From: a virus
IMG/VR virus record: IMGVR_UViG_3300011114_000296
Coordinates: 1 to 34,239 of that record
Reading direction: 5' to 3' (one strand)
DNA length: 34,239 nt
Shown here: one piece after another, positions 4,318 to 26,923 of the stretch
Numbering within the stretch: position 1 is the stretch's first letter
Layout: the number at the start of each line of letters is the position of its first letter
Notes under the pieces: model-generated
Databases searched by the model: none
What the model was told of the DNA's origin: nothing
What the model saw: only the letters and a program-made list of their open reading frames with translations
Made by a program: the position numbers and the translations under genes

Positions 4318-4491
4318 ATGTATCTCACAGTCACAGACGCCGCCAAGCGGCTAAAAGTCAGCCGACAATGGACTACAACGCTGATAAATCAAGGAAAAAT
4401 AGCCACAACCATCCTCGCCGGTCGGCGGGTGGTCATCGCTGACAAGACATTCCAGGCGATGGAAAAAGGGCGCCGGAAGGCGGGGAAATGA
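4318..4491 (+). CDS. excisionase/MerR-like helix-turn-helix protein (57 aa)
   Basis: The product starts MYLTVTDAAKRLKVSRQ, the typical opening of HTH_17/excisionase-type winged helix domains. A second helix (WTTTLINQGKI) and a wing with basic residues (LAGRRVVIADKTF) follow. ACGAGGATTGCC is the RBS for ATG 4318; an upstream in-frame ATG at 4288 overlaps the promoter -10 and is less likely. The gene is first in the rightward operon, beside the divergent promoters, and its stop overlaps the methyltransferase start. A DNA-binding regulator of this switch is the likely role. No integrase is present, so excision is not implied. Confidence 0.75.
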   Translation: MYLTVTDAAKRLKVSRQWTTTLINQGKIATTILAGRRVVIADKTFQAMEKGRRKAGK

Positions 4492-6116
4492 ATTATTTGT
4501 CAGTTTGTAGTGGAATTGAGGCGGCCACAGTGGGCTGGCATTCTTTAGGCTGGAAACCTGTTGCCTTTTCTGAGATTGAAAAATTCCCATGTTCTGCATT
4601 GGCGCACCATTATCATGATGTGCCTAACTGGGGAGATATGACTAAATTTAAGGAGTGGCCAAATGCTTGTGTATGCAGGGAATTGGGACACGCCGAAAAA
4701 GGGGAGAGCGGAACGAGTTCATCGATGGAAGTTGCTAGACGACGCAATTCCAACGCTAACCAGAACGGCAGGAAGCGGATCGACGAACGACGCAGTATTG
4801 GTGGTTTATGCGGAACAGTTAAAGGAGTTTGCAATGAATGCGGAGGCACAATTGTCGATGTTCTCGTCGGAGGAACCCCCTGCCAATCTTTCAGTGTCGC
4901 AGGACTCAGAAAAGGATTGGCAGACCCGCGTGGCAACCTCATGCTTACGTATCTTGCCATTGCTGCAAAGTATAGCCCCGAGTGGTTGGTTTGGGAAAAC
5001 GTGCCCGGCGTCTTGTCCAGTAACGGAGGACGAGATTTTGCCAGCCTCCTTCGAGGGATGGGGCAACTCGGGTATGGGTTCGCCTACCGAATTCTTGACG
5101 CTCAACACTTTGGAGTTCCCCAGCGACGCCGTCGCGTGTTCGTTGTCGGATGTCTTGGAGGTTGGCAACGTGCCGCAGCGGTTCTTTTTGAGCGCCACAG
5201 CTTGCAAAGGCATACTGCGCCGCGCAGAGAAGCGGGGGAAAAAATTGCCGGAACAATTGCAAGCCTCTTTGGAACAGGTGGCGCAGACTACGATACAAAA
5301 GAACTGATCGGAGGGATTGATTACGAGAACAACGGTCATGGCCCTACTGGCCCTACTGACCCTTTGCTGAAAGGTTCGCCGACCGGTGGCGGCAGACCGT
5401 TACCTGCTATTGTTCAAGCTCACCGTCAGGTTGCGTTTGGCGAATACGTTAACGATGACACGGCTTCGGCGATGAAGATGCGTGATTACAAAGATGCAAC
5501 TGATCTTGTGACGCACTCCCTTCGCGGTGAAGGCTTTGACGCCAGCGAGGACGGAACGGGGAGAGGGACGCCGTTGGTGCCGGTGGCGTATTCAATCCTC
5601 GGCAACGCCATTGGTCGCCAGGACCATAACGGCCCGAACGGGCATTGTATTTCGGAAGAAGTAGCACCGACTCTGGACAAAACTGCGGTGCATGGCGTGG
5701 CAACTACTTTTAGGGCAAAGGCATCTTTTGATCTTGGGGTTGGGATTGATGTTAGCGGCACGTTAGAGGCCATTAATCCGACTGCCGTGGTTGCTGCTTT
5801 TAAGGGTAATCAAGGCAGTGCGGCTGGCAGCATTGGTTACAGCGAGCACGTTGCTCCTACATTATCAAATAACACACCAACCCTAATGCAGACAATGCAA
5901 GTGCGCCGCCTTACTCCTCGCGAGTGTGAACGCTTGCAAGGGTTCCCTGATGATTACACTTTAGTGCCGCACAACGGAAAAATAGCCGCTGATGGGCCGC
6001 GCTACAAGGCACTTGGCAACAGCATGGCGGTGCCAGTAATGGCATGGATCGGTAAACGAATTCAACAAGTGGAGGAAATAACATGCACCACAAAGCGAAA
6101 ATACCATTCAGCATAG
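4488..6116 (+). CDS. orphan DNA (cytosine-5) methyltransferase
   Basis: A 542-aa C5-methyltransferase. Motif I is SVCSGIEAATVGW (5-17), motif IV is GGTPCQSFS with catalytic C132, motif VI is ENVPG (170-174), motif VIII is QRRRRVFVVG (212-221), motif IX is RRLTPRECERLQGFP (about 474-488) and motif X is ALGNSMAVPV (about 508-517). The 250-residue variable region between VIII and IX should hold target recognition. Residues about 61-120 form an insertion before motif IV with C61, C63, C108, C115 and C118. No cognate restriction enzyme is visible, so protection of phage DNA from host restriction is likely. A second gene lies in another frame inside it. ATG 4488 overlaps the previous stop (ATGA). 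Confidence 0.95.
   Translation: MNYLSVCSGIEAATVGWHSLGWKPVAFSEIEKFPCSALAHHYHDVPNWGDMTKFKEWPNACVCRELGHAEKGESGTSSSMEVARRRNSNANQNGRKRIDERRSIGGLCGTVKGVCNECGGTIVDVLVGGTPCQSFSVAGLRKGLADPRGNLMLTYLAIAAKYSPEWLVWENVPGVLSSNGGRDFASLLRGMGQLGYGFAYRILDAQHFGVPQRRRRVFVVGCLGGWQRAAAVLFERHSLQRHTAPRREAGEKIAGTIASLFGTGGADYDTKELIGGIDYENNGHGPTGPTDPLLKGSPTGGGRPLPAIVQAHRQVAFGEYVNDDTASAMKMRDYKDATDLVTHSLRGEGFDASEDGTGRGTPLVPVAYSILGNAIGRQDHNGPNGHCISEEVAPTLDKTAVHGVATTFRAKASFDLGVGIDVSGTLEAINPTAVVAAFKGNQGSAAGSIGYSEHVAPTLSNNTPTLMQTMQVRRLTPRECERLQGFPDDYTLVPHNGKIAADGPRYKALGNSMAVPVMAWIGKRIQQVEEITCTTKRKYHSA
4834..5307 (+). CDS. overprinted gene inside the methyltransferase (157 aa)
   Basis: This gene lies wholly within the methyltransferase gene in the +1 frame. 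ATG 4834 has AAAGGAG at 4821-4827 with a 6-nt spacer. An earlier in-frame ATG at 4663 also has AAGGAG 7 nt upstream and would give 214 aa. The protein opens MNAEAQLSMFSSEEPP, has a WFGKTCPASC segment, a GNSGMGSP loop, TLNTLEFPSDAVACSLSDVL, and ends with a basic helix containing ACKGILRRAEKRGKKLP. I recall very similar segments in phage hypothetical proteins encoded at methyltransferase loci; that is memory, not a search. The region also encodes methyltransferase motifs IV-VIII in frame 0, so both frames are constrained. Function unknown; a link to modification or anti-restriction is plausible. Confidence 0.7.
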   Translation: MNAEAQLSMFSSEEPPANLSVSQDSEKDWQTRVATSCLRILPLLQSIAPSGWFGKTCPASCPVTEDEILPASFEGWGNSGMGSPTEFLTLNTLEFPSDAVACSLSDVLEVGNVPQRFFLSATACKGILRRAEKRGKKLPEQLQASLEQVAQTTIQKN

Positions 6117-18235: not shown

Positions 18236-19237
18236 ATGGCTTTTGCCAATAGCTCGATCAGCGACATCATTGCGACCAACATTCAAAGTCGTAGCGGTGA
18301 GCTGGCCGACAACGTAACAAACAACAATGCGCTTCTGCGCCGCCTCAAAGAGCGCGGTAACGTGAAAACGTTTTCCGGTGGTAACGTAATCTTGCAAGAG
18401 GTTATGTATAACGACAGCACGACCAATAACACGAATTCTTATTCGGGTTACGAAGTGCTTAACGTTTCACAAAACAGCCCGATCAGTGCGGCGCAATACG
18501 GCATCACGCAATACGCTGCTGCTGTTTCGATCAGCGGTTTGGAGATGATTCAAAACAGCGGCAAGGAAGCGATCATCGACCTGCTCGATGGCCGTATGAA
18601 CGTTGCTGAAGCGCAACTGGCCAACCGTATCGGTTCGGATATTTATCTGGACGGAACCGGCAACTCGGGTAAGAACATCACCGGACTGGCAGCTGCTGTG
18701 CCGGATAGTCCGAGCACTGGTACGTATGGTGGCATCAACCGCGCTACGTTCTCGTTCTGGCGCTCGGTGGCTTATTCTGGTGTAACGAACGGTGGATCTG
18801 CTACGTCAGCCTCCAACATCCAGCAGTATATGGATTCAATCGCTGTGCAGCTGATTCGCGGAACCGACAAGCCGGATCTGATCGTTGCTGACAATAACTA
18901 TTACCGTTTGTATCTGCAATCGTTGCAATCGATTCAGCGCATTTCTGATTCGGGTTCTTCGATGGCCGGTGCGGGCTTTGCTTCGCTGAAATATTACGGC
19001 GCTGGCATGGCTTCCGACGTTGTGCTTGACGGCGGTATTGGTTCAGCAGCGACGGCAAACCATATGTGGTTCTTGAACACAAAATACATTTTCTTCCGGC
19101 CGCACGTTGACCGGAATTTTGTGCCGATTGGCGGCGAACGGCAAGCCGTAAACCAAGACGCGATTGTTAAACTGATAGGCTGGGCTGGCAATATGTGCGC
19201 CAGCGGTCCGCAGTTTAGCGGCGTCTTGATCGCCTAA
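18236..19237 (+). CDS. major capsid protein
   Basis: A 333-aa HK97-fold candidate. The order (N-terminal helix region, LSxYGI-like SAAQYGITQYAAAVSISGLEMIQNSGKEAIIDLLDGRM, FSFWRS, DKPDLIVADNNYYRLYLQSLQSIQRI, and a C-terminal GGERQAVNQDAIVKLIGWAGNMCASGPQFSGVLI) matches capsid proteins of small podophages. CTAAGGAGCTTTTATT before ATG 18236 is among the strongest RBSs, as expected for the most abundant virion protein. It follows the scaffold by 23 nt. No protease gene is visible, so maturation may not need cleavage. Confidence 0.9.
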   Translation: MAFANSSISDIIATNIQSRSGELADNVTNNNALLRRLKERGNVKTFSGGNVILQEVMYNDSTTNNTNSYSGYEVLNVSQNSPISAAQYGITQYAAAVSISGLEMIQNSGKEAIIDLLDGRMNVAEAQLANRIGSDIYLDGTGNSGKNITGLAAAVPDSPSTGTYGGINRATFSFWRSVAYSGVTNGGSATSASNIQQYMDSIAVQLIRGTDKPDLIVADNNYYRLYLQSLQSIQRISDSGSSMAGAGFASLKYYGAGMASDVVLDGGIGSAATANHMWFLNTKYIFFRPHVDRNFVPIGGERQAVNQDAIVKLIGWAGNMCASGPQFSGVLIA

Positions 19238-19250
19238 AGGAGATATTGAC

Positions 19251-19799
19251 ATGGCTTATACTTTTGACGACAACAAAGCCGGTTTGCTTCAGATTGCGGT
19301 CATCGACACGGGCGTTACTAGCCCGAGCGGTGTCTCATCTGGTAGCGCAACCGTTATCCCAACCCCGCCTAATACACTGGGTCAGGTCGAGCGCGCTTTC
19401 GATCCGACCTATGGCGCCGGTGAATTCATCCTGTTGGTGGGCGTTGCTTCCACTGCGGTTGGTTCGCTGGTGACGTATGATGGCACGACGTATCAGACGA
19501 CTCTGTGCGCGACTACTAGTAACCAGGCTCGCCCGGTTGCTGTGGCAATGTCTGCTAATCTGGCCGGCACCTTTGGCTGGTATCAGATTGAAGGCACTGC
19601 AATTGTCACGAAAACCACTGGCGCAAAAGTCAACCCGACTGTTGCGATCGGTGTCGTTTCGACCGGCAAGGTTGGCGCTTCGGCGTCGGGTAAGGAAATT
19701 CTCGGCGCACGTTCTGCGAACGCCGCGACGGTTGCATCGGCTACCACTACGGTTGCCATTGTGATCAACCGCCCGCATCTGCAAGGCCGTATCACCTAA
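19251..19799 (+). CDS. head decoration/minor capsid-like protein
   Basis: A 182-aa Ala/Thr/Val/Gly-rich beta protein directly behind the capsid gene with its own strong RBS (AAAGGAGATATTGAC). Segments such as GAGEFILLVGVASTAVGSLVTYDGTTYQTTL and ARPVAVAMSANLAGTFGWYQIEGTAIV are typical of capsid-stabilising or decoration proteins next to podophage capsid genes. No catalytic motif, signal peptide or membrane segment is seen. It probably binds the mature capsid surface. The gene ends just before a strong hairpin. Confidence 0.75.
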   Translation: MAYTFDDNKAGLLQIAVIDTGVTSPSGVSSGSATVIPTPPNTLGQVERAFDPTYGAGEFILLVGVASTAVGSLVTYDGTTYQTTLCATTSNQARPVAVAMSANLAGTFGWYQIEGTAIVTKTTGAKVNPTVAIGVVSTGKVGASASGKEILGARSANAATVASATTTVAIVINRPHLQGRIT

Positions 19800-19842: not shown

Positions 19843-21156
19843 ATGGATATAGAAATAATCTGCAACACTAACGATGACGAATTATTCGCCAACGTTAAAC
19901 TGAATTCTCGATCATGCGATCGCTGGATCGCGCAGGTTCCTGCTCACGATGGCCATGCTGTCATTGTTGGCGGTGGACCGTCTGTTGCTGACCAGCTCGA
20001 CATGATCCGCAAACGGCACGCGCTGGGGCAAAAGATATTTGCTCTCAACGGCGCTGCCAAGTTTTTAAACAAGAACAATATCGTGCCGGAATACCAGGTC
20101 ATTCTTGACGCTCGCCCCGGCAATATTGATCTAATCGGCAAAGCTGACGAATATTTGATTTCCAGCCAATGCCATCCAACATTGTTTGATGCCGTTGAAA
20201 ACATCACCACTTGGCATCCGGCGGTTGATGGTTTGGACGCGCATTTGCCTGACTATGATGGCGAGTTTGCAATGGTTGGCGGCGGCACAACGGTTGGCCT
20301 GTCTGCGATGTGCTTGGCCTATACGATGGGCTACCGCAAGCTGCATCTGTTTGGCTATGACTGCTCGCACCGTAACGCGATGGGTCACGCTTATAAACAG
20401 TCTATGAACGACAGCGACGTGCTTTGCAAGGTCACGCTCAACGGCAAAGTGTTTACCAGCTCGCTGGCAATGGCGCGGCAGGCCGAACTGTTCCCGCAAG
20501 TTTCAGACAATCTCATTACTTTGGGCTGCATTATCACGATTGACGGCGACGGACTTATTAAGGAAGTGGTATCCGAAATGCGCCGCATTTCCCCCCCAAT
20601 GAGCGAACCAATGGCCGAGGATGAGAAATACCGCAAAATGTGGTCAATTCCGGCTTATCGTGACACTGCACCAGGCGAATTGATTGCCGAAACCTTTGTT
20701 AAGGTCGCCAATATCACAAAAGAGCAAAAAGTGGTAGATTTTGGTTGCGGAACAGGTCGCGGAAGTAAGAAAATACACGAATTGACCGGCGCCACAATGC
20801 AGATGGTCGACTTCAGCAACAATTGCCTGGACTCGAATGTGACGTTTCCCCTGCTCATCGCCGATCTGACAAAGCCCATCGCCGCCACTGGTGATGTGGG
20901 CTATTGCACAGACGTGATGGAACACATCGCGCCCGAGAACGTCGACACCGTTATTAAAAATATCATGGATTGCGTCGAATCGGCGTTTTTCCAGATAAGC
21001 CTTGTGCACGACAACATGGGTGCGTTGATCGGCCAGCACCTTCATTTGTCTGTCTTTCCCTATTCGTGGTGGGCAGATAAATTCAAGGAATACCGCATTC
21101 TCTGGTCAGATCAAGATGCAATTAACGCAGTCTTTTATGTAAAAAAGGAGATTTAA
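19843..21156 (+). CDS. MptE-like (DUF115) domain fused to SAM methyltransferase
   Basis: A 437-aa two-domain enzyme. Residues 30-240 resemble the 6-hydroxymethylpterin pyrophosphokinase MptE-like/DUF115 fold, related to motility-associated Maf glycosyltransferases: VIVGGGPSVAD (40-50), a NGAAKFL loop, VILDARPGN, MVGGGTTVGLSA and LHLFGYDCS (167-175). Residues 265-437 are a class I methyltransferase with motif I VVDFGCGTGRG (297-307), an acidic VDFS (322-325), IADLT and YCTDVMEHI (354-362). The fusion sits between capsid and neck genes. A role in modifying virion or host surface sugars, or phage DNA or nucleotides, is possible. No nearby RBS is present unless the upstream hairpin folds. Confidence 0.75.
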   Translation: MDIEIICNTNDDELFANVKLNSRSCDRWIAQVPAHDGHAVIVGGGPSVADQLDMIRKRHALGQKIFALNGAAKFLNKNNIVPEYQVILDARPGNIDLIGKADEYLISSQCHPTLFDAVENITTWHPAVDGLDAHLPDYDGEFAMVGGGTTVGLSAMCLAYTMGYRKLHLFGYDCSHRNAMGHAYKQSMNDSDVLCKVTLNGKVFTSSLAMARQAELFPQVSDNLITLGCIITIDGDGLIKEVVSEMRRISPPMSEPMAEDEKYRKMWSIPAYRDTAPGELIAETFVKVANITKEQKVVDFGCGTGRGSKKIHELTGATMQMVDFSNNCLDSNVTFPLLIADLTKPIAATGDVGYCTDVMEHIAPENVDTVIKNIMDCVESAFFQISLVHDNMGALIGQHLHLSVFPYSWWADKFKEYRILWSDQDAINAVFYVKKEI

Positions 21157-21158
21157 AA

Positions 21159-21518
21159 ATGGGTATCCCTTCACGCGTTTTGGCTTCAGGTAATTCACCG
21201 CTTTCAACGACCAGCATCTGTGGCGACGGCGCCACTGCTCTGGTTGCTGCTGGCTCAACCGCAGCTGATGCGCTGCAACTGTCGGCCTGCTACAACTCAA
21301 TCGGCACCGCTGCGGCGAGCACCGGCGTCAAACTGCCGCCAACCGAAGCGGGTGCGATGGTCGCTGTTTATAACGGCGGCGCGTCAACTCTGACCGTTTA
21401 CCCGGCGACCGGCTCGACGATCAACGCCGCCGCGGCCAGCTTGTCGGTCACCGCGACGACTCGGGTTTTGTTTATCGCCACCTCGGCGACGACCTGGATC
21501 TCAATCGCTGGCGCGTAA
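21159..21518 (+). CDS. structural beta protein, paralogue A of a tandem pair
   Basis: A 119-aa protein beginning GIPSRVLASGNSPLSTTSICGDGATAL. Later segments are ADALQLSACYNSIGTAAASTGVKLPPTEAGAMVAVYNGG and LTVYPATGSTI. All-beta, Ala/Thr/Gly-rich, typical of small phage decoration or neck proteins. It shares its order and many residues with the next gene, so the pair arose by duplication. AAAAAGGAGATTTAAAA precedes ATG 21159, a strong RBS. Copy number and location on the virion are unknown. Confidence 0.7.
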   Translation: MGIPSRVLASGNSPLSTTSICGDGATALVAAGSTAADALQLSACYNSIGTAAASTGVKLPPTEAGAMVAVYNGGASTLTVYPATGSTINAAAASLSVTATTRVLFIATSATTWISIAGA

Positions 21519-21883
21519 TGACAATCCCCTCGCGGGTTTTGGGTGCCGGTGCGTCATCATTAATGACCGTTGCCATTTGTGGCGACGGCGTGGATGGTTT
21601 GACTGCGACCGGTTCCACCCGCGCTGATGCGCTGCAACTGAATAAGATTTACAACTCGATTGATACGGCAACTGCTGGCACTGGCGTTTTGTTGCCGCCC
21701 ACACAAATGGGCGCAACAATTTACATTGCCAATTCAGGCAATAGCACAATCAAGGTTTATCCGTACGAAACCGCAACAACGGTGAATCAAACTACATCGG
21801 CATCCATTCCCAAAGATCACACAAGTATATTTTTTGCGGTGACCAATGCCATGTGGTACAGCATCAACGGCACTAAAACTTAA
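21518..21883 (+). CDS. structural beta protein, paralogue B of the tandem pair
   Basis: A 121-aa protein aligned end to end with the previous one: TIPSRVLGAGASSLMTVAICGDGVDGL, RADALQLNKIYNSIDTATAGTGVLLPPTQMGATIYIANSG and IKVYPYETATTVN. It has drifted mainly in the C-terminal half, which is richer in Lys and Asn. The TAATG overlap (21516-21520) couples it to paralogue A. The two may form hetero-oligomers or decorate different sites, as duplicated neck proteins can. No enzymatic motif. Confidence 0.7.
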   Translation: MTIPSRVLGAGASSLMTVAICGDGVDGLTATGSTRADALQLNKIYNSIDTATAGTGVLLPPTQMGATIYIANSGNSTIKVYPYETATTVNQTTSASIPKDHTSIFFAVTNAMWYSINGTKT

Positions 21884-21903: not shown

Positions 21904-22446
21904 ATGGCTTTAGATAGCGACATTTACAACGCAGATTCGCACCTTCACGTTGAATTTTATTTAAACGAGGACGGCGAATTTAAGGCAAATCCGAAAGAGT
22001 TTGTGCGGATCATTGTGCCGGGTGACAAAACCAATGTCGTTGACCAGCCTGTGCGGGAGGATCACAAAGAGCGTTTTCCTCGCCAATATCTTTACTGGAA
22101 GATGCAAAACACCGACGCTTCGGTGATCGGCACGCCGCTGTCACAGTGGCACGAAAATGCGCCTGAAGAATTTAATTCTCACCAGATGGCCGAGCTGCAA
22201 ATCTTGAAATTCCAAACTGTCGAACAGATCGCCACTGCCACCGACGCGCAATTGCAGCGCATTGGCATGGGTGCGTCAGGACTGCGCGAAAAAGCGCGGC
22301 TGTATTTGACGAACAAGAACAAATCGCAAAACGATACTGAGCTGGAAGAAACTCGCGCCCAGCTCAAACAATTGCAGGAACAAATGGCGATGCTGATGGA
22401 AACCCGAAAGCCTGGGCGACCGCGCAAAGAGGCCGAAGCCGCCTAA
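21904..22446 (+). CDS. conserved phage head-tail region protein
   Basis: A 180-aa protein with an N-terminal beta region (HLHVEFYLNEDGE, EFVRIIVPGDKTNVVDQPVREDHKERFPRQY). A middle segment, MAELQILKFQTVEQIATATDAQLQRIGMG, follows, then a charged coiled coil (about 130-165) and a basic GRPRKEAE tail reminiscent of an AT-hook core (GRPRK). Such proteins recur between capsid and adaptor genes in small podophages. Role not established; an assembly or DNA-contact role is conceivable. CACAGGAGAAATCAAA precedes ATG 21904. Confidence 0.65.
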   Translation: MALDSDIYNADSHLHVEFYLNEDGEFKANPKEFVRIIVPGDKTNVVDQPVREDHKERFPRQYLYWKMQNTDASVIGTPLSQWHENAPEEFNSHQMAELQILKFQTVEQIATATDAQLQRIGMGASGLREKARLYLTNKNKSQNDTELEETRAQLKQLQEQMAMLMETRKPGRPRKEAEAA

Positions 22447-22459
22447 GAAAGGTTGAATT

Positions 22460-23371
22460 ATGTCGAGCACGATGTTGCAACTGGTGCAGCAGGTCACGAA
22501 CGAACTCGGCGTCTCGACGCCGACGTATGTTGCGGGCAACACGAATCAGGACGTTACGCAGATTCTGGCGCTGATGAATGCAACCGGCTACGAGCTGCTG
22601 CGCCGGCACAACTGGCGTGCGATGACAAAGCAATACGGTTTTTATACTGAATATCTGACCACGACCGGCAACTGGACAACCGCGGCACGCACAATTACTG
22701 GGATTCCCAGCACCACCGGGTTAGATACCACCTATCAAGTGCAGGGCACCGGCATCAATCAGAACACGTATATTGTGTCGGTTGATAGCGCGACGCAGGT
22801 TACGGTTAATCAAGACTTTGCCGCGGCCGGTGGCACTGATGCCACTGCTTATTTCCAGAAGATCCGTTACGATCTGCCTAGCGATTATGAGGCACTTGTG
22901 CCGCGTACTATGTGGGATAAATCCAAGCATTGGGAGATGCTCGGGCCTGAGGACGCCCAGCAATGGGAATGGTTGCTCTCAGGCTATATCAGCACCGGCC
23001 CGCGGATTCGCTGGCGCTTGTTGGGCAAGTATTTCCAGATTTGGCCTGGTATGTCTACCGCAGAAAGCCTCGGGCTAGAATACCGCAGCAATGGCTGGGC
23101 AGAAGCGGCCGATGGCACTGTCAAGACCAGCTTTACAGTCGACACCGACACCACGATCTATCCAGATCGCCTGATGGTGCTCTCAACAAAACTCAAATAC
23201 TTTGAAGCCAAAGGTTTTGATACCACCGCAATGTATCGAAACTATATTGAAGAACTTGAGGTTTCGATGGCGCTGGATATGTCGAGTGCTAATCTGAGCT
23301 TTGCGCCGCGCCCAGGCACTGTGTTGATCGGTTACGACAACATACCGGATTCTGGATATGGCCCGAACTAA
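22460..23371 (+). CDS. head-tail adaptor (tail tubular A-like) protein
   Basis: A 303-aa protein. The N-terminal QLVQQVTNELGVSTP helix and ILALMNATGYELLRRHNWRAMTKQYGF match the helix bundle of podovirus adaptors that sit below the portal. A central insert with Gly/Thr-rich strands (about 65-125) is followed by YDLPSDYEALVPRTMWDKSKHWEMLGPEDAQQWEWL and a C-terminal helical region, also typical. It should form a 12-fold ring joining portal to nozzle. AAGAAAGGTTGAATT gives the RBS, and the end overlaps the nozzle gene by 14 nt. Confidence 0.85.
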   Translation: MSSTMLQLVQQVTNELGVSTPTYVAGNTNQDVTQILALMNATGYELLRRHNWRAMTKQYGFYTEYLTTTGNWTTAARTITGIPSTTGLDTTYQVQGTGINQNTYIVSVDSATQVTVNQDFAAAGGTDATAYFQKIRYDLPSDYEALVPRTMWDKSKHWEMLGPEDAQQWEWLLSGYISTGPRIRWRLLGKYFQIWPGMSTAESLGLEYRSNGWAEAADGTVKTSFTVDTDTTIYPDRLMVLSTKLKYFEAKGFDTTAMYRNYIEELEVSMALDMSSANLSFAPRPGTVLIGYDNIPDSGYGPN

Positions 23372-24929
23372 CGCGCTGGTCCAACATACCGCGGCTCGCG
23401 TGGCGTCGATTCCGGCGCCGGTGGGCGGCTGGAATGCCAGAGACTCCATCGCCAACATGGAACCGCTGGATGCGGTCCAACTGATTAACTTTTTCCCGAC
23501 GGTCAGCAATTGCGTGTTGAGAGGCGGTTCAACGACCTGGGCAACCGGCATGACGGGGCAAGTGCAATCGATCATGGTCTACAACGGCGGCACGACCAGC
23601 AAGATGTTTGCGGCCGTGGCGACGCCGGATCTGAAGTTTTACGATGTGAGCACCGCAGGGGCGGCATCAGCAACAACTGTCACCGGCCTGACAAACGCAA
23701 TTTGGGAATATATTAACGTCACCACGACCGGCGGCAGTTTTCTGTATGCCGTGAACGGCGTGGACAAACCGCGGTTGTACGATGGCACCAACTGGACCGC
23801 CATTGATGGCGGCTCAACGCCCGCCATCACCGGCGTGACGACGACGACGCTATCAAATGTTAATTTGTTTAAAAACCGTTTGTGGTTTATCCAGAAAGAC
23901 ACGCTCAAAGCATGGTATTTGCCGACGAGCGCAATCGGTGGAGCCGCGCAAGTGCTCGATCTGTCTGCCATTGCCAAATTCGGCGGGCATTTGGTGGATC
24001 TGGACACCTGGACCATTGACGCCGGCTATGGCGTTGACGACAACCTGGTATTTATCACATCAAACGGCGAGATTATTGTTTATCGCGGAACCGATCCGGC
24101 CAGCGAAGCCACTTGGGCGCTGTCCGGCGTCTGGAAGCTGGGCAGCCCGATTGGAAACCGCGCCATGCTGAAATGGGGCGGCGATCTGCTGATCTTGACG
24201 TATGACGGTCTGATGCCGCTGGCGCAGAGCTTGCAATCCTCTCGACTAGATCCTCGGGTGGCACTGTCAAATAAGATTCAAGGGGCCATCACGCAGGCCA
24301 CAACGGCCTATGGCGGCGATCACGCCGCAGTCGGGTGGCAGGTCTACTACAACGCCAAAAGAAACGCTGTATGGATCAATGTGCCTGTTGATACAGGGTA
24401 TCAAGAGCAGTATGTGATGAACACGATCACGACGAGCTGGTGCCAGTTTCAGAGCTGGCCGGCGAACTGCTGGGAAACTTACAACGATAATCCGTATTAC
24501 GGCGGGAACGGCGTGGTGGTCAGGGCGTGGGATGATACTTATTCGGATAATGCGGCAAACATTACGACAAACGCCTTTCAAGCCTTCAATTACTTTGACA
24601 GCCGCGGCGTTAAAAAATACTTTACCCGGGCGCGACCGAGTATTTTTACGGACGGTGCTCCGGCGATATTTGTCGGAATAAACGTTGATTTCGATGTTGA
24701 AGATACGGCAGCGCCGCTGTCACTGGCCGGTGATTTGCCTGGTCTGTGGGATGTCGGAAAATGGGATCAATCAACCTGGGGATCTGGCTTGCAGATTACG
24801 AATAATTGGCAAGGCATCACCGGGCTGGGTTACTGCGGATCTATTCAGCTAAAAAGTGCCAGCACTGCGTGGCAAATTGAGTGGGCAAGCACAGACGTGG
24901 TTTATCAGGCCGGATGGGCAGGCATATAG
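23358..24929 (+). CDS. tail nozzle/tail tubular B-like protein
   Basis: A 523-aa beta-rich protein. PAPVGGWNARDSIANMEPLDAVQLINFFPTVSNCVLRGG at the N-terminus is the usual start of podophage nozzle or stabilisation proteins. Successive blades (GLTNAIWEYINVTTTGGSFLYAVNGVDKPRLYDG, NRLWFIQKDTLKAWYLP, DDNLVFITSNGEIIVYRGTDP) indicate a beta-propeller core. The C-terminal part contains GLWDVGKWDQSTWGS, echoing the WDTGTWDAALWDS motif at 16136. It probably forms the distal tail tube through which ejected DNA passes and to which fibres attach. Confidence 0.85.
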   Translation: MARTNALVQHTAARVASIPAPVGGWNARDSIANMEPLDAVQLINFFPTVSNCVLRGGSTTWATGMTGQVQSIMVYNGGTTSKMFAAVATPDLKFYDVSTAGAASATTVTGLTNAIWEYINVTTTGGSFLYAVNGVDKPRLYDGTNWTAIDGGSTPAITGVTTTTLSNVNLFKNRLWFIQKDTLKAWYLPTSAIGGAAQVLDLSAIAKFGGHLVDLDTWTIDAGYGVDDNLVFITSNGEIIVYRGTDPASEATWALSGVWKLGSPIGNRAMLKWGGDLLILTYDGLMPLAQSLQSSRLDPRVALSNKIQGAITQATTAYGGDHAAVGWQVYYNAKRNAVWINVPVDTGYQEQYVMNTITTSWCQFQSWPANCWETYNDNPYYGGNGVVVRAWDDTYSDNAANITTNAFQAFNYFDSRGVKKYFTRARPSIFTDGAPAIFVGINVDFDVEDTAAPLSLAGDLPGLWDVGKWDQSTWGSGLQITNNWQGITGLGYCGSIQLKSASTAWQIEWASTDVVYQAGWAGI

Positions 24930-25348: not shown

Positions 25349-26234
25349 ATCGTCACCATCAGCGCCGCCAGCGCCGGATTACGCGGGCGCAGCTCAAGCG
25401 CAGGGCGCCGCAAACGTCGAAACCGCCCGCGTACAGGGTCGGATGAACAACCCGAATATCGTTGGCCCGTTGGGTGGGCAGACGGTCACTTTTGGTGAAA
25501 ATGATCAACCGACGGTCACGCAGAATCTAACGCCGACCGCACAATCTACGCTGGAATCGCAGCAACGCGTACAGCAGGCATTGGCCAATCTTGGCGAGCA
25601 GGGTCTAGGCACTGCTCGTGAGGTTCTTGCAACAAAGTTTGATCCTAATTTGCCAGATATTCAAACCCGCGTTAATACTAGCAATATTGCCAAAATGCCG
25701 GTAAATGCGGGCACAACTGGACAAGAAGCAATCATGTCACGGCTGGCGCCGCAGCTTGAAAAGTCAGACGCAGCAACGCGGCAGCGGTTAATTAACGAGG
25801 GTCTGGTACCGGGTGGCGAAGCATACGAAAACGCCATGATTTCGCAGAATCAGCAAAAGAATGATTTGCTCGCGCAGGCCGCGCTGCAAGGTATTAATTT
25901 AGACACTGCTGCAAATGCTCAAGGATACAACCAAGAATTGCAATCAGGTCAATTTACAAACACAGCAATACAACAACTTCTAGCAAAAGCGTCTGGATTG
26001 CGCGCTCAGCCATTAAATGAAATTTCTGGCTTGATGAGTGGTTCACAAATCCAAATGCCGCAGTTTCAAGGCTATCAAGGGTCAAACATTGCACCGGCAC
26101 CGATCTTTGCAGGGGCGCAGGCGGCAGGGCAGGGCGCAATAGATCGGTATGGAATTGCATCCTCAAACGTCAACGCGCAGAATGCCGGGCTTTATAACTT
26201 GGCAGGCACCGCAGGCATGGCGGTTGCGCTCTAA
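25341..26234 (+). CDS. internal virion (ejection) protein candidate
   Basis: A 297-aa Gln/Ala/Asn-rich protein. It begins with a Ser/Pro-rich MGKSSPSAPPAPDYAGAAQAQG and has a helical middle (QSTLESQQRVQQALANLGEQ; RLAPQLEKSDAATRQRLINEGL). It ends with a Gly/Ala hydrophobic stretch (LYNLAGTAGMAVAL) that could contact membrane. Such proteins follow the nozzle in small podophages and are likely ejected or assembled in the head core. Start set at ATG 25341 because AAAGGATCGCAAATC precedes it; it overlaps the GNAT gene by 8 nt. Confidence 0.65.
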   Translation: MGKSSPSAPPAPDYAGAAQAQGAANVETARVQGRMNNPNIVGPLGGQTVTFGENDQPTVTQNLTPTAQSTLESQQRVQQALANLGEQGLGTAREVLATKFDPNLPDIQTRVNTSNIAKMPVNAGTTGQEAIMSRLAPQLEKSDAATRQRLINEGLVPGGEAYENAMISQNQQKNDLLAQAALQGINLDTAANAQGYNQELQSGQFTNTAIQQLLAKASGLRAQPLNEISGLMSGSQIQMPQFQGYQGSNIAPAPIFAGAQAAGQGAIDRYGIASSNVNAQNAGLYNLAGTAGMAVAL

Positions 26235-26923
26235 TGCTTGGAATTGCCTTTTCTGGTGGTAAAGATTCTCTGGCTTGCTGGTATTTATCCAAGCATCTGA
26301 ATCCTGTTGTTTTGTGGGTAAATACTGGCACAGGCTATCCAGAAACTTTAAAAATTGTAAATGAGATAAAAAGCCAAGCATTTCAGTTTGTAGAAATTAA
26401 TTCCGATAAGCAAAAGCAAAATGATGAATGGGGTTTGCCATCGGATATTGTGCCAATTCATTTCACAAATACTGGAATGCAAATTAGTGGCATCAAGCCA
26501 ATAAAGGTGCAGAGTTATTTAGGATGTTGTTACGAAAACATAGCAAATCCGTTGATGCAAAAATGCAAAGAAATGGGCATTACTGAATTGATCAGAGGAC
26601 AACGATTAGACGAGAGTTATAAATCGCTTGCAGTTAATGGCTCAATGGTTGATGGCATTAAGTTTTTGCAGCCCATTGAAACATGGACAAAACAGCAAGT
26701 TTTAGATTATTTGCTAGACCAGCGCGGCAGTTTGCCAGAACATTATTCAATAGATCATTCAAGCCTTGATTGTTATGATTGCACTGCGTTTTTAGAGCAT
26801 TCAGCAGATCGGATTGCGTGGACAAAACAGCGTCATCCTGACCTTTACGAGATATATTCTAAAAAAATGGACGCACTGAAAATGACCTTAAAACCCAGTC
26901 TAAATGCAATGGGGATGATATGA
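26234..26923 (+). CDS. PP-loop ATPase, CysH/APS-reductase-like with 4Fe-4S signature
   Basis: A 229-aa adenine-nucleotide alpha-hydrolase-like enzyme. The PP-loop is SGGKDSL (7-13). RGQRLDESYKS (121-131) and LQPIETWTKQQVLDYL (145-160) match the PAPS/APS reductase family. C98-C99, then 80 residues, then C180-x2-C183 is the classical CC-X80-CxxC [4Fe-4S] ligand set of APS reductases. The C-terminal catalytic ECGLH-type cysteine is missing, so sulphonucleotide reduction is unlikely. A sulphur-transfer or nucleotide-activating role, as in DndC-like or thiolation enzymes, is possible. It is markedly AT-rich and wedged (TAATG and ATGA overlaps) between ejection genes, which suggests a later-acquired moron-like gene that stays translationally coupled. 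Confidence 0.85.
   Translation: MLGIAFSGGKDSLACWYLSKHLNPVVLWVNTGTGYPETLKIVNEIKSQAFQFVEINSDKQKQNDEWGLPSDIVPIHFTNTGMQISGIKPIKVQSYLGCCYENIANPLMQKCKEMGITELIRGQRLDESYKSLAVNGSMVDGIKFLQPIETWTKQQVLDYLLDQRGSLPEHYSIDHSSLDCYDCTAFLEHSADRIAWTKQRHPDLYEIYSKKMDALKMTLKPSLNAMGMI

Follow-up and report, generated by a model that had tools for sequence, protein, structure and literature searches.

What would a phage gain from a protein that joins a DUF115 domain to a methyltransferase and is encoded amid its capsid genes? Such a protein is found in the window analysed here, the 34,239 nucleotides that make up the whole of IMG/VR record IMGVR_UViG_3300011114_000296, from an Mx8-like phage. The major head protein of this phage matches those of phages BUCT555 (Stenotrophomonas), Mx8 (Myxococcus) and ppBjS10J-1 (Bradyrhizobium) at ∼51%. 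An earlier inspection of the letters alone (the sequence-only reading) had described the fusion as a pterin-pyrophosphokinase/Maf-type domain followed by a methyltransferase and had suggested nucleotide-sugar or glycan transfer plus methylation, perhaps aimed at the capsid, the host surface or DNA.

Location and domain organization of the fusion

The fusion gene (19843..21156, plus strand) encodes a 437-residue protein from an ATG start. The N-terminal Maf/GT42-like domain (residues ∼1–245; 19843..20577, plus strand) was delimited using PF01973, a superposition on the Maf structure 5mu5 and an alignment of 83 homologues. A short linker connects it to a C-terminal class I SAM methyltransferase domain (residues ∼253–437; 20599..21153, plus strand), which was delimited using profiles, the same alignment and structural neighbours.

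The fusion occupies a slot between decoration and neck genes, as the sequence-only reading had it, and its neighbours from the major head gene to the tail/neck gene lie on the plus strand. The major head protein of the Mx8 family (18236..19237; phrog_9953, E 1e-105) is encoded two genes 5' of the fusion, and a virion structural/decoration protein (19251..19799; phrog_29386, E 4e-21; Ser+Thr 22.5%) directly 5' of it. On the 3' side, a small Ser/Thr/Ala/Gly-rich protein of 119 residues (21159..21518; Ser+Thr 26.9%) is followed by a 121-residue paralogue (21518..21883; Ser+Thr 25.6%), a conserved adaptor-region protein that closes the slot (21904..22446; phrog_20268) and a tail/neck protein (22460..23371; phrog_6013, E 1.5e-39). 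Farther downstream, the product of 23358–24929 carries the PHROG label 'amidase' (phrog_5107), which looks doubtful because the ctMlz233 counterpart at the equivalent position is annotated as a phage stabilization protein. A PAPS-reductase-family protein (26234–26923; PF01507, E 8e-13) is also encoded amid the late genes.

The first domain has a predicted Maf-type fold

The Pfam model PF01973 (MptE-like, formerly DUF115) spans residues 36–178 of the fusion with an E value of 4.9e-18 and a score of 65.9 bits, above its gathering cut-off of 34.6 bits. PF01973 takes in both Maf and archaeal MptE, and thus the Pfam name cannot decide between them. In a profile search using 29 diverse first domains, Maf 5mu5 was matched with an E value of 1.6e-13, versus 0.09 for MptE (PDB 8sd5), a 6-hydroxymethyl-7,8-dihydropterin pyrophosphokinase; a profile of the full-length fusion also matched 8sd5 weakly (E 0.012). 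An AF2 model built with 83 homologues as input exhibited a mean pLDDT of 94.3 and replaced a model from 11 close sequences (pLDDT 61), which was set aside. The model predicts a Maf-type fold for the first domain and a class I SAM methyltransferase fold for the second. Residues 10–245 of the model superpose on the central domain of 5mu5 (Z 20.9, 218 residues, root-mean-square deviation 3.1 Å), and 5mu5 is the top Foldseek match of the fusion model. No MptE structure is present among the best 50 structural-aligner matches listed, which excludes nothing.

The resemblance to Maf extends to individual residues. The Gly-Pro-Ser loop (including S47), R165, D173, H182 and Q186 align with identical residues in Maf 5mu5. 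N69 and D89 are not matched by the same residues in that structure, and in the weak alignment with 8sd5, D89 lies opposite an MptE Asp. The central glycosyltransferase fold and the Gly-Pro-Ser/Arg/Asp/His/Gln positions are thus common to the fusion and Maf (Magnetospirillum 5mu5; C. botulinum). In contrast, Maf lacks the C-terminal methyltransferase, and its N-terminal Rossmann-like and C-terminal helical flanking domains are absent from the phage fusion, in which only the central domain was found; the term 'Maf-type domain' is therefore used here rather than 'a Maf'. The surroundings also differ, being capsid genes for the fusion and flagellar genes for Maf. MptE shares PF01973 and the Gly-Pro-Ser loop with the fusion, but it is a pterin pyrophosphokinase rather than a glycosyltransferase and has no methyltransferase. 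By profile comparison and predicted structure, the closer relative of the first domain is the flagellin glycosyltransferase Maf, with the pterin kinase MptE more distant. The Maf-type half of the earlier description was thus favoured over the pterin-kinase half; pterin pyrophosphokinase as the main reading was rejected on the E value of 0.09 for 8sd5 versus 1.6e-13 for Maf.

More remote relationships connect the first domain to sialyltransferase-like phage proteins. A PHROG search matched phrog_4603 with an E value of 0.003, and hhalign aligned the first domain with phrog_4603 ('alpha-2,3-sialyltransferase')/phrog_2111 phage proteins at a probability of 96 and an E value of 1e-9. These GT42-like proteins are remote homologues that stand beside, or are fused to, the same methyltransferase family; they differ from the fusion in being shorter, single-domain and usually separate genes of other phage types. 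A profile of phrog_4603-like neighbours matches CstII (GT42) only weakly by sequence (E ∼0.5), and similarity between the sialyltransferase CstII and the central domain of Maf has been reported (PMC11339370). The Kdo transferase WaaZ was also matched weakly (E 0.005).

The second domain resembles class I SAM methyltransferases

The PHROG 24759 'methyltransferase' profile matches residues 268–416 with an E value of 3e-14, and generic SAM methyltransferase models match residues ∼279–390 below their own cut-offs (best E 4e-5). The GxGxG consensus of motif I takes the form FGCGTGRG at residues 300–307, and the acidic residue after strand 2 is the invariant D323. The DUF115–methyltransferase architecture claimed for this open reading frame is thereby confirmed. 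The structural neighbours of the domain (Z 17–19) are UbiG, METTL6, TehB-like and phosphoethanolamine methyltransferases, and a peptide N-terminal methyltransferase is also among its matches. On these profiles and the predicted model, the second domain is a class I SAM-dependent methyltransferase, which may methylate O or N.

The fusion does not contain the DPPY-type motif of DNA N6-adenine/N4-cytosine methyltransferases. The corresponding alignment position holds CTDVMEHI, a segment that we take to recall small-molecule methyltransferases. The window also encodes a C5 cytosine DNA methylase (PF00145) at 4488–6116, apart from the fusion. DNA methylation by the fusion was rejected since the DPPY motif is absent and the C5 methylase is separate. 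These features also bear on the idea that an MptE-like pyrophosphokinase and the methyltransferase together produce a pterin or nucleotide in modified form, which could serve, for example, DNA hypermodification. The Pfam name and the D89–Asp correspondence fit that idea, but the far closer match to Maf, the lack of a DPPY-type motif, the separate C5 methylase and the structural-gene context make it highly improbable.

Conservation of the two active sites

Residue conservation was assessed using 83 forward-order representatives that are 37–82% identical to the window protein. In the first domain, S47, N69, D89, G152, G163, R165, G171, D173, H182, Q186 and N189 are invariant. In the second domain, the invariant residues are E259, Y263, Y272, P277, D299, G301, G303, G305, D323, C355, D357, E360, H361, H401 and W410. 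Loss of active-site residues among relatives, the observation that the sequence-only reading had named as damaging to its enzyme assignment, was looked for in these 83 representatives, and both halves were intact. Fusions of the reverse order (methyltransferase–DUF115) have identical residues at all 21 checked methyltransferase positions in 37 of 37 cases, and D173, H182, Q186 and N189 are retained by every reverse-order fusion that covers those positions. R165 and G152 vary among the reverse-order fusions. Given this variation and the difference of N69 and D89 from 5mu5, the donor or the chemistry may differ from that of Maf.

Between the window gene and its relative L002, dN/dS is 0.031/0.476 in the first half and 0.007/0.249 in the second half. 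The fusion is under strong purifying selection, as measured from the few pairs that are unsaturated at synonymous sites. If the fusion were a structural component of the virion in which two enzyme folds had been reused without catalysis, its location amid virion protein genes would fit, but this reading is barely credible in view of this selection and of the invariance of motif I, the post-I acids and the Maf-type His/Gln/Asp residues in divergent homologues.

Fusions in both orders and split genes near virion genes

The same fusion was sought in other phages. IMG/VR scans yielded at least 142 distinct DUF115–methyltransferase fusions, nearly all in the capsid–neck block of Mx8-like phages, and at least 37 distinct fusions of the reverse order in other phages (e.g. 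L232, L251, L260, L265, L271 and L287); more than 500 relatives were matched, and both counts are therefore floors. With at least 142 distinct same-order homologues and low dN/dS where computable, the fusion is far beyond chance. The linker of the forward fusions is ∼4–15 residues long by HMM boundaries. Among the matches listed, a decoration protein is encoded directly 5' in 123 of the 125 forward fusions with an informative upstream gene, and the 3' gene encodes a small Ser/Thr-rich protein, an adaptor or a neck protein. Homologues of the 21159..21518 product come after the fusion in approximately half of the Mx8-like loci. Homologues of the tandem paralogues (21159–21883) were observed in 134 loci of a set dominated by fusion carriers and in 0 of the 80 loci nearest Mx8.

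The reverse fusions adjoin virion structural genes and genes for phrog_644 proteins. In siphoviruses (MW202621, a metagenome-derived record, and L126–L129), the two halves are split, with the gene order phrog_247 major head protein, methyltransferase, DUF115-like gene and another structural protein; the profile used for adjacency counts missed some split DUF115-like genes of the L126–L129 type, and these counts are lower bounds. A third type of fusion (L225:4377–5564) combines a phrog_4603 'sialyltransferase' domain with the same methyltransferase family. Elsewhere, the methyltransferase adjoins phrog_4603/phrog_2111 genes, a phrog_1962 glycosyltransferase or Sulfotransfer_3 sulfotransferases near head–tail adaptors, and five loci (L221, L222, L223, L226 and L229) contain small cassettes of GT42-like, methyltransferase and phrog_1962 or Sulfotransfer_3 genes within structural modules. 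The fusion in two orders, together with split neighbours, provides strong evidence for a shared pathway.

Several loci depart from these arrangements. In a close relative (L008:6138–7436), an in-frame stop between the domains yields two open reading frames, either a natural split or a sequencing error. A distant methyltransferase homologue on a T4-like contig (L027:4016–4759) lies, by eye, beside genes resembling those of heptose-nucleotide synthesis. Bacterial genomes contain only one fusion, on the phage-like contig L130, plus lone methyltransferase homologues; two of the lone homologues (L131:7800–8603 and L132:8016–8630) are found amid bacterial genes in chlamydia-like genome bins. A search of the phage record collection with the DUF115 half alone gave no match, and hence no cultured carrier of the fusion was found.

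The methyltransferase is persistently paired with glycosyltransferase-like domains, both in the two fusion orders and as split genes, and has sulfotransferase neighbours; these associations point to a common glycan substrate. They argue against a methyltransferase that modifies a virion protein directly, at a side chain or a terminus, with the DUF115 half separate or merely ligand-binding and no methylated glycan formed. Methylated phage proteins have been reported in free virions of Cellulophaga phages (PMC13288928), and the methyltransferase half matches METTL6 and the peptide N-terminal methyltransferase, among others; direct protein methylation is nonetheless considered improbable.

The gene surroundings also weigh on the target of the sugar. 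The fusion might modify a host glycan of the LPS core or capsule, with a Kdo-like residue added or methylated, and so block superinfection or alter receptors, in which case its late-gene site would be coincidental. GT42 and Kdo transferases do work on LPS, WaaZ gave its weak match, and receptor-modifying glycosyltransferases are common in phages. However, the capsid–neck position is fixed in nearly all of the at least 142 forward loci, the gene is found within the structural modules of several unrelated phage types, and host-receptor modifiers usually sit with lysogeny or early genes. Host-glycan modification is thus judged unlikely. Of the three targets first proposed, gene order points to virion proteins and so retains the capsid over the host surface and DNA.

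Gain and loss among Mx8-like phages

The fusion gene is absent from all five annotated relatives in which it was looked for. Among the 80 Mx8-like loci nearest Mx8, it is absent from all 66 in which the whole interval is visible; the longer intervals of these loci contain, by eye, long, fibre-like or other unannotated genes and no obvious modification enzymes. On a tree of head proteins, which was sampled by similarity to a few queries and is not a basis for rates, the presence of the gene requires four changes versus a shuffled mean of 35 and is strongly clustered. A cultured phage (L032) and a metagenomic record (L033), both without the gene, nest inside gene-carrying groups, which suggests that the gene was lost in these two lineages.

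A model for virion glycosylation and methylation

Given the Maf-type fold and the intact SAM methyltransferase, the fusion is best read as an enzyme of sugar transfer and methylation, and the earlier proposal to that effect is supported at the level of sequence and model. The protein is interpreted, at a probability of roughly 0.6, as a bifunctional enzyme made late with the structural proteins that glycosylates a virion protein and then methylates the attached glycan. We infer that both domains would be catalytically active and that sugar transfer would precede methylation. With late expression alongside the structural proteins, the Maf/GT42-like domain would bind a nucleotide-activated sugar and move the sugar onto Ser/Thr residues of a capsid accessory protein. 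This step would take place in the cytoplasm, either ahead of assembly or while it proceeds. The most likely donor would be CMP-Kdo or a CMP-nonulosonate, since enzymes with this class of fold use such donors. The window proteins scanned included no enzyme of sugar-nucleotide biosynthesis, and the donor would therefore have to come from the host. Nearly all Gram-negative hosts produce CMP-Kdo, so the phage would need no donor-synthesis gene. The C-terminal SAM methyltransferase would O-methylate the transferred glycan. The virion surface would then display a methylated sugar, which may mask the particle, alter its adhesion or stabilize the shell.

The acceptor is probably a Ser/Thr-rich capsid accessory protein. 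The decoration protein and the small flanking proteins have the highest Ser/Thr content among the structural proteins measured (22–27%), and the decoration protein and the 119-residue protein are candidate acceptors. Similar values (24–28%) were obtained for the phrog_644 proteins encoded beside the reverse fusions. Ser/Thr-rich virion proteins are common, and the gene neighbourhood bears on timing and partnership, not on the acceptor. Maf itself transfers CMP-activated nonulosonic acids to Ser/Thr of flagellin, a self-assembling surface protein, and needs no fixed sequon; its reported target sites have hydrophobic or low-complexity neighbourhoods, and the C. botulinum Maf also takes Neu5Ac and Kdo (PMC11339370). 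A more specific proposal is offered tentatively, as possible rather than likely: a one-chain enzyme would attach a CMP-activated ulosonic acid (host Kdo or a nonulosonate) to capsid accessory proteins at Ser/Thr and then O-methylate it, the pairing would have arisen repeatedly (in both orders and split), and methyl-glycan coats would be common in environmental phages.

Precedents and implications

A glycosyltransferase-like domain linked to a methyltransferase and to structural genes, as observed here, recalls known phage virion glycosylation, although the methyltransferase of the fusion may be either O- or N-specific. In cluster O mycobacteriophages, three glycosyltransferase genes lie 3' of an O-methyltransferase gene and are said to modify the capsid and tail tube (PMC11600133); mycobacteriophage virion glycosylation is also described in PMC12363180. 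The mycobacteriophages (cluster O; Che8, Corndog and Myrna) resemble the fusion phages in encoding their own glycosyltransferases, in cluster O with the adjacent O-methyltransferase gene. They differ in using separate genes and several glycosyltransferases, and the likeness drawn here is one of function and gene linkage. Virion glycosylation with a linked O-methyltransferase is an already known kind of system.

The sequence-only reading had recognized no described system with this fusion. That statement holds in part: no paper on phage DUF115/MptE proteins or on such a fusion was found in the literature searched, whereas BFVD contains several uncultured-phage 'MptE-like' entries with a similar predicted structure, and the mycobacteriophages offer a functional precedent. 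As far as searched, three elements are undescribed: the use of an enzyme of Maf type, its fusion in one chain in two orders, and the breadth of this fusion in environmental phages.

The naming of the 'MptE-like' phage proteins after an archaeal pterin kinase is probably misleading, and the present reading, if true, would give a testable role to this large set of proteins. For placing defined sugars on proteins, the fusion also offers a compact candidate tool. Judged by the sequence and model evidence, many phages may cover their virions with methylated sugars. If so, virion glycosylation and methylation would not be confined to actinobacterial phages but would be widespread in uncultured environmental phages and carried out by a dedicated enzyme, and capsid chemistry would be tied to immune masking, adhesion or particle stability.
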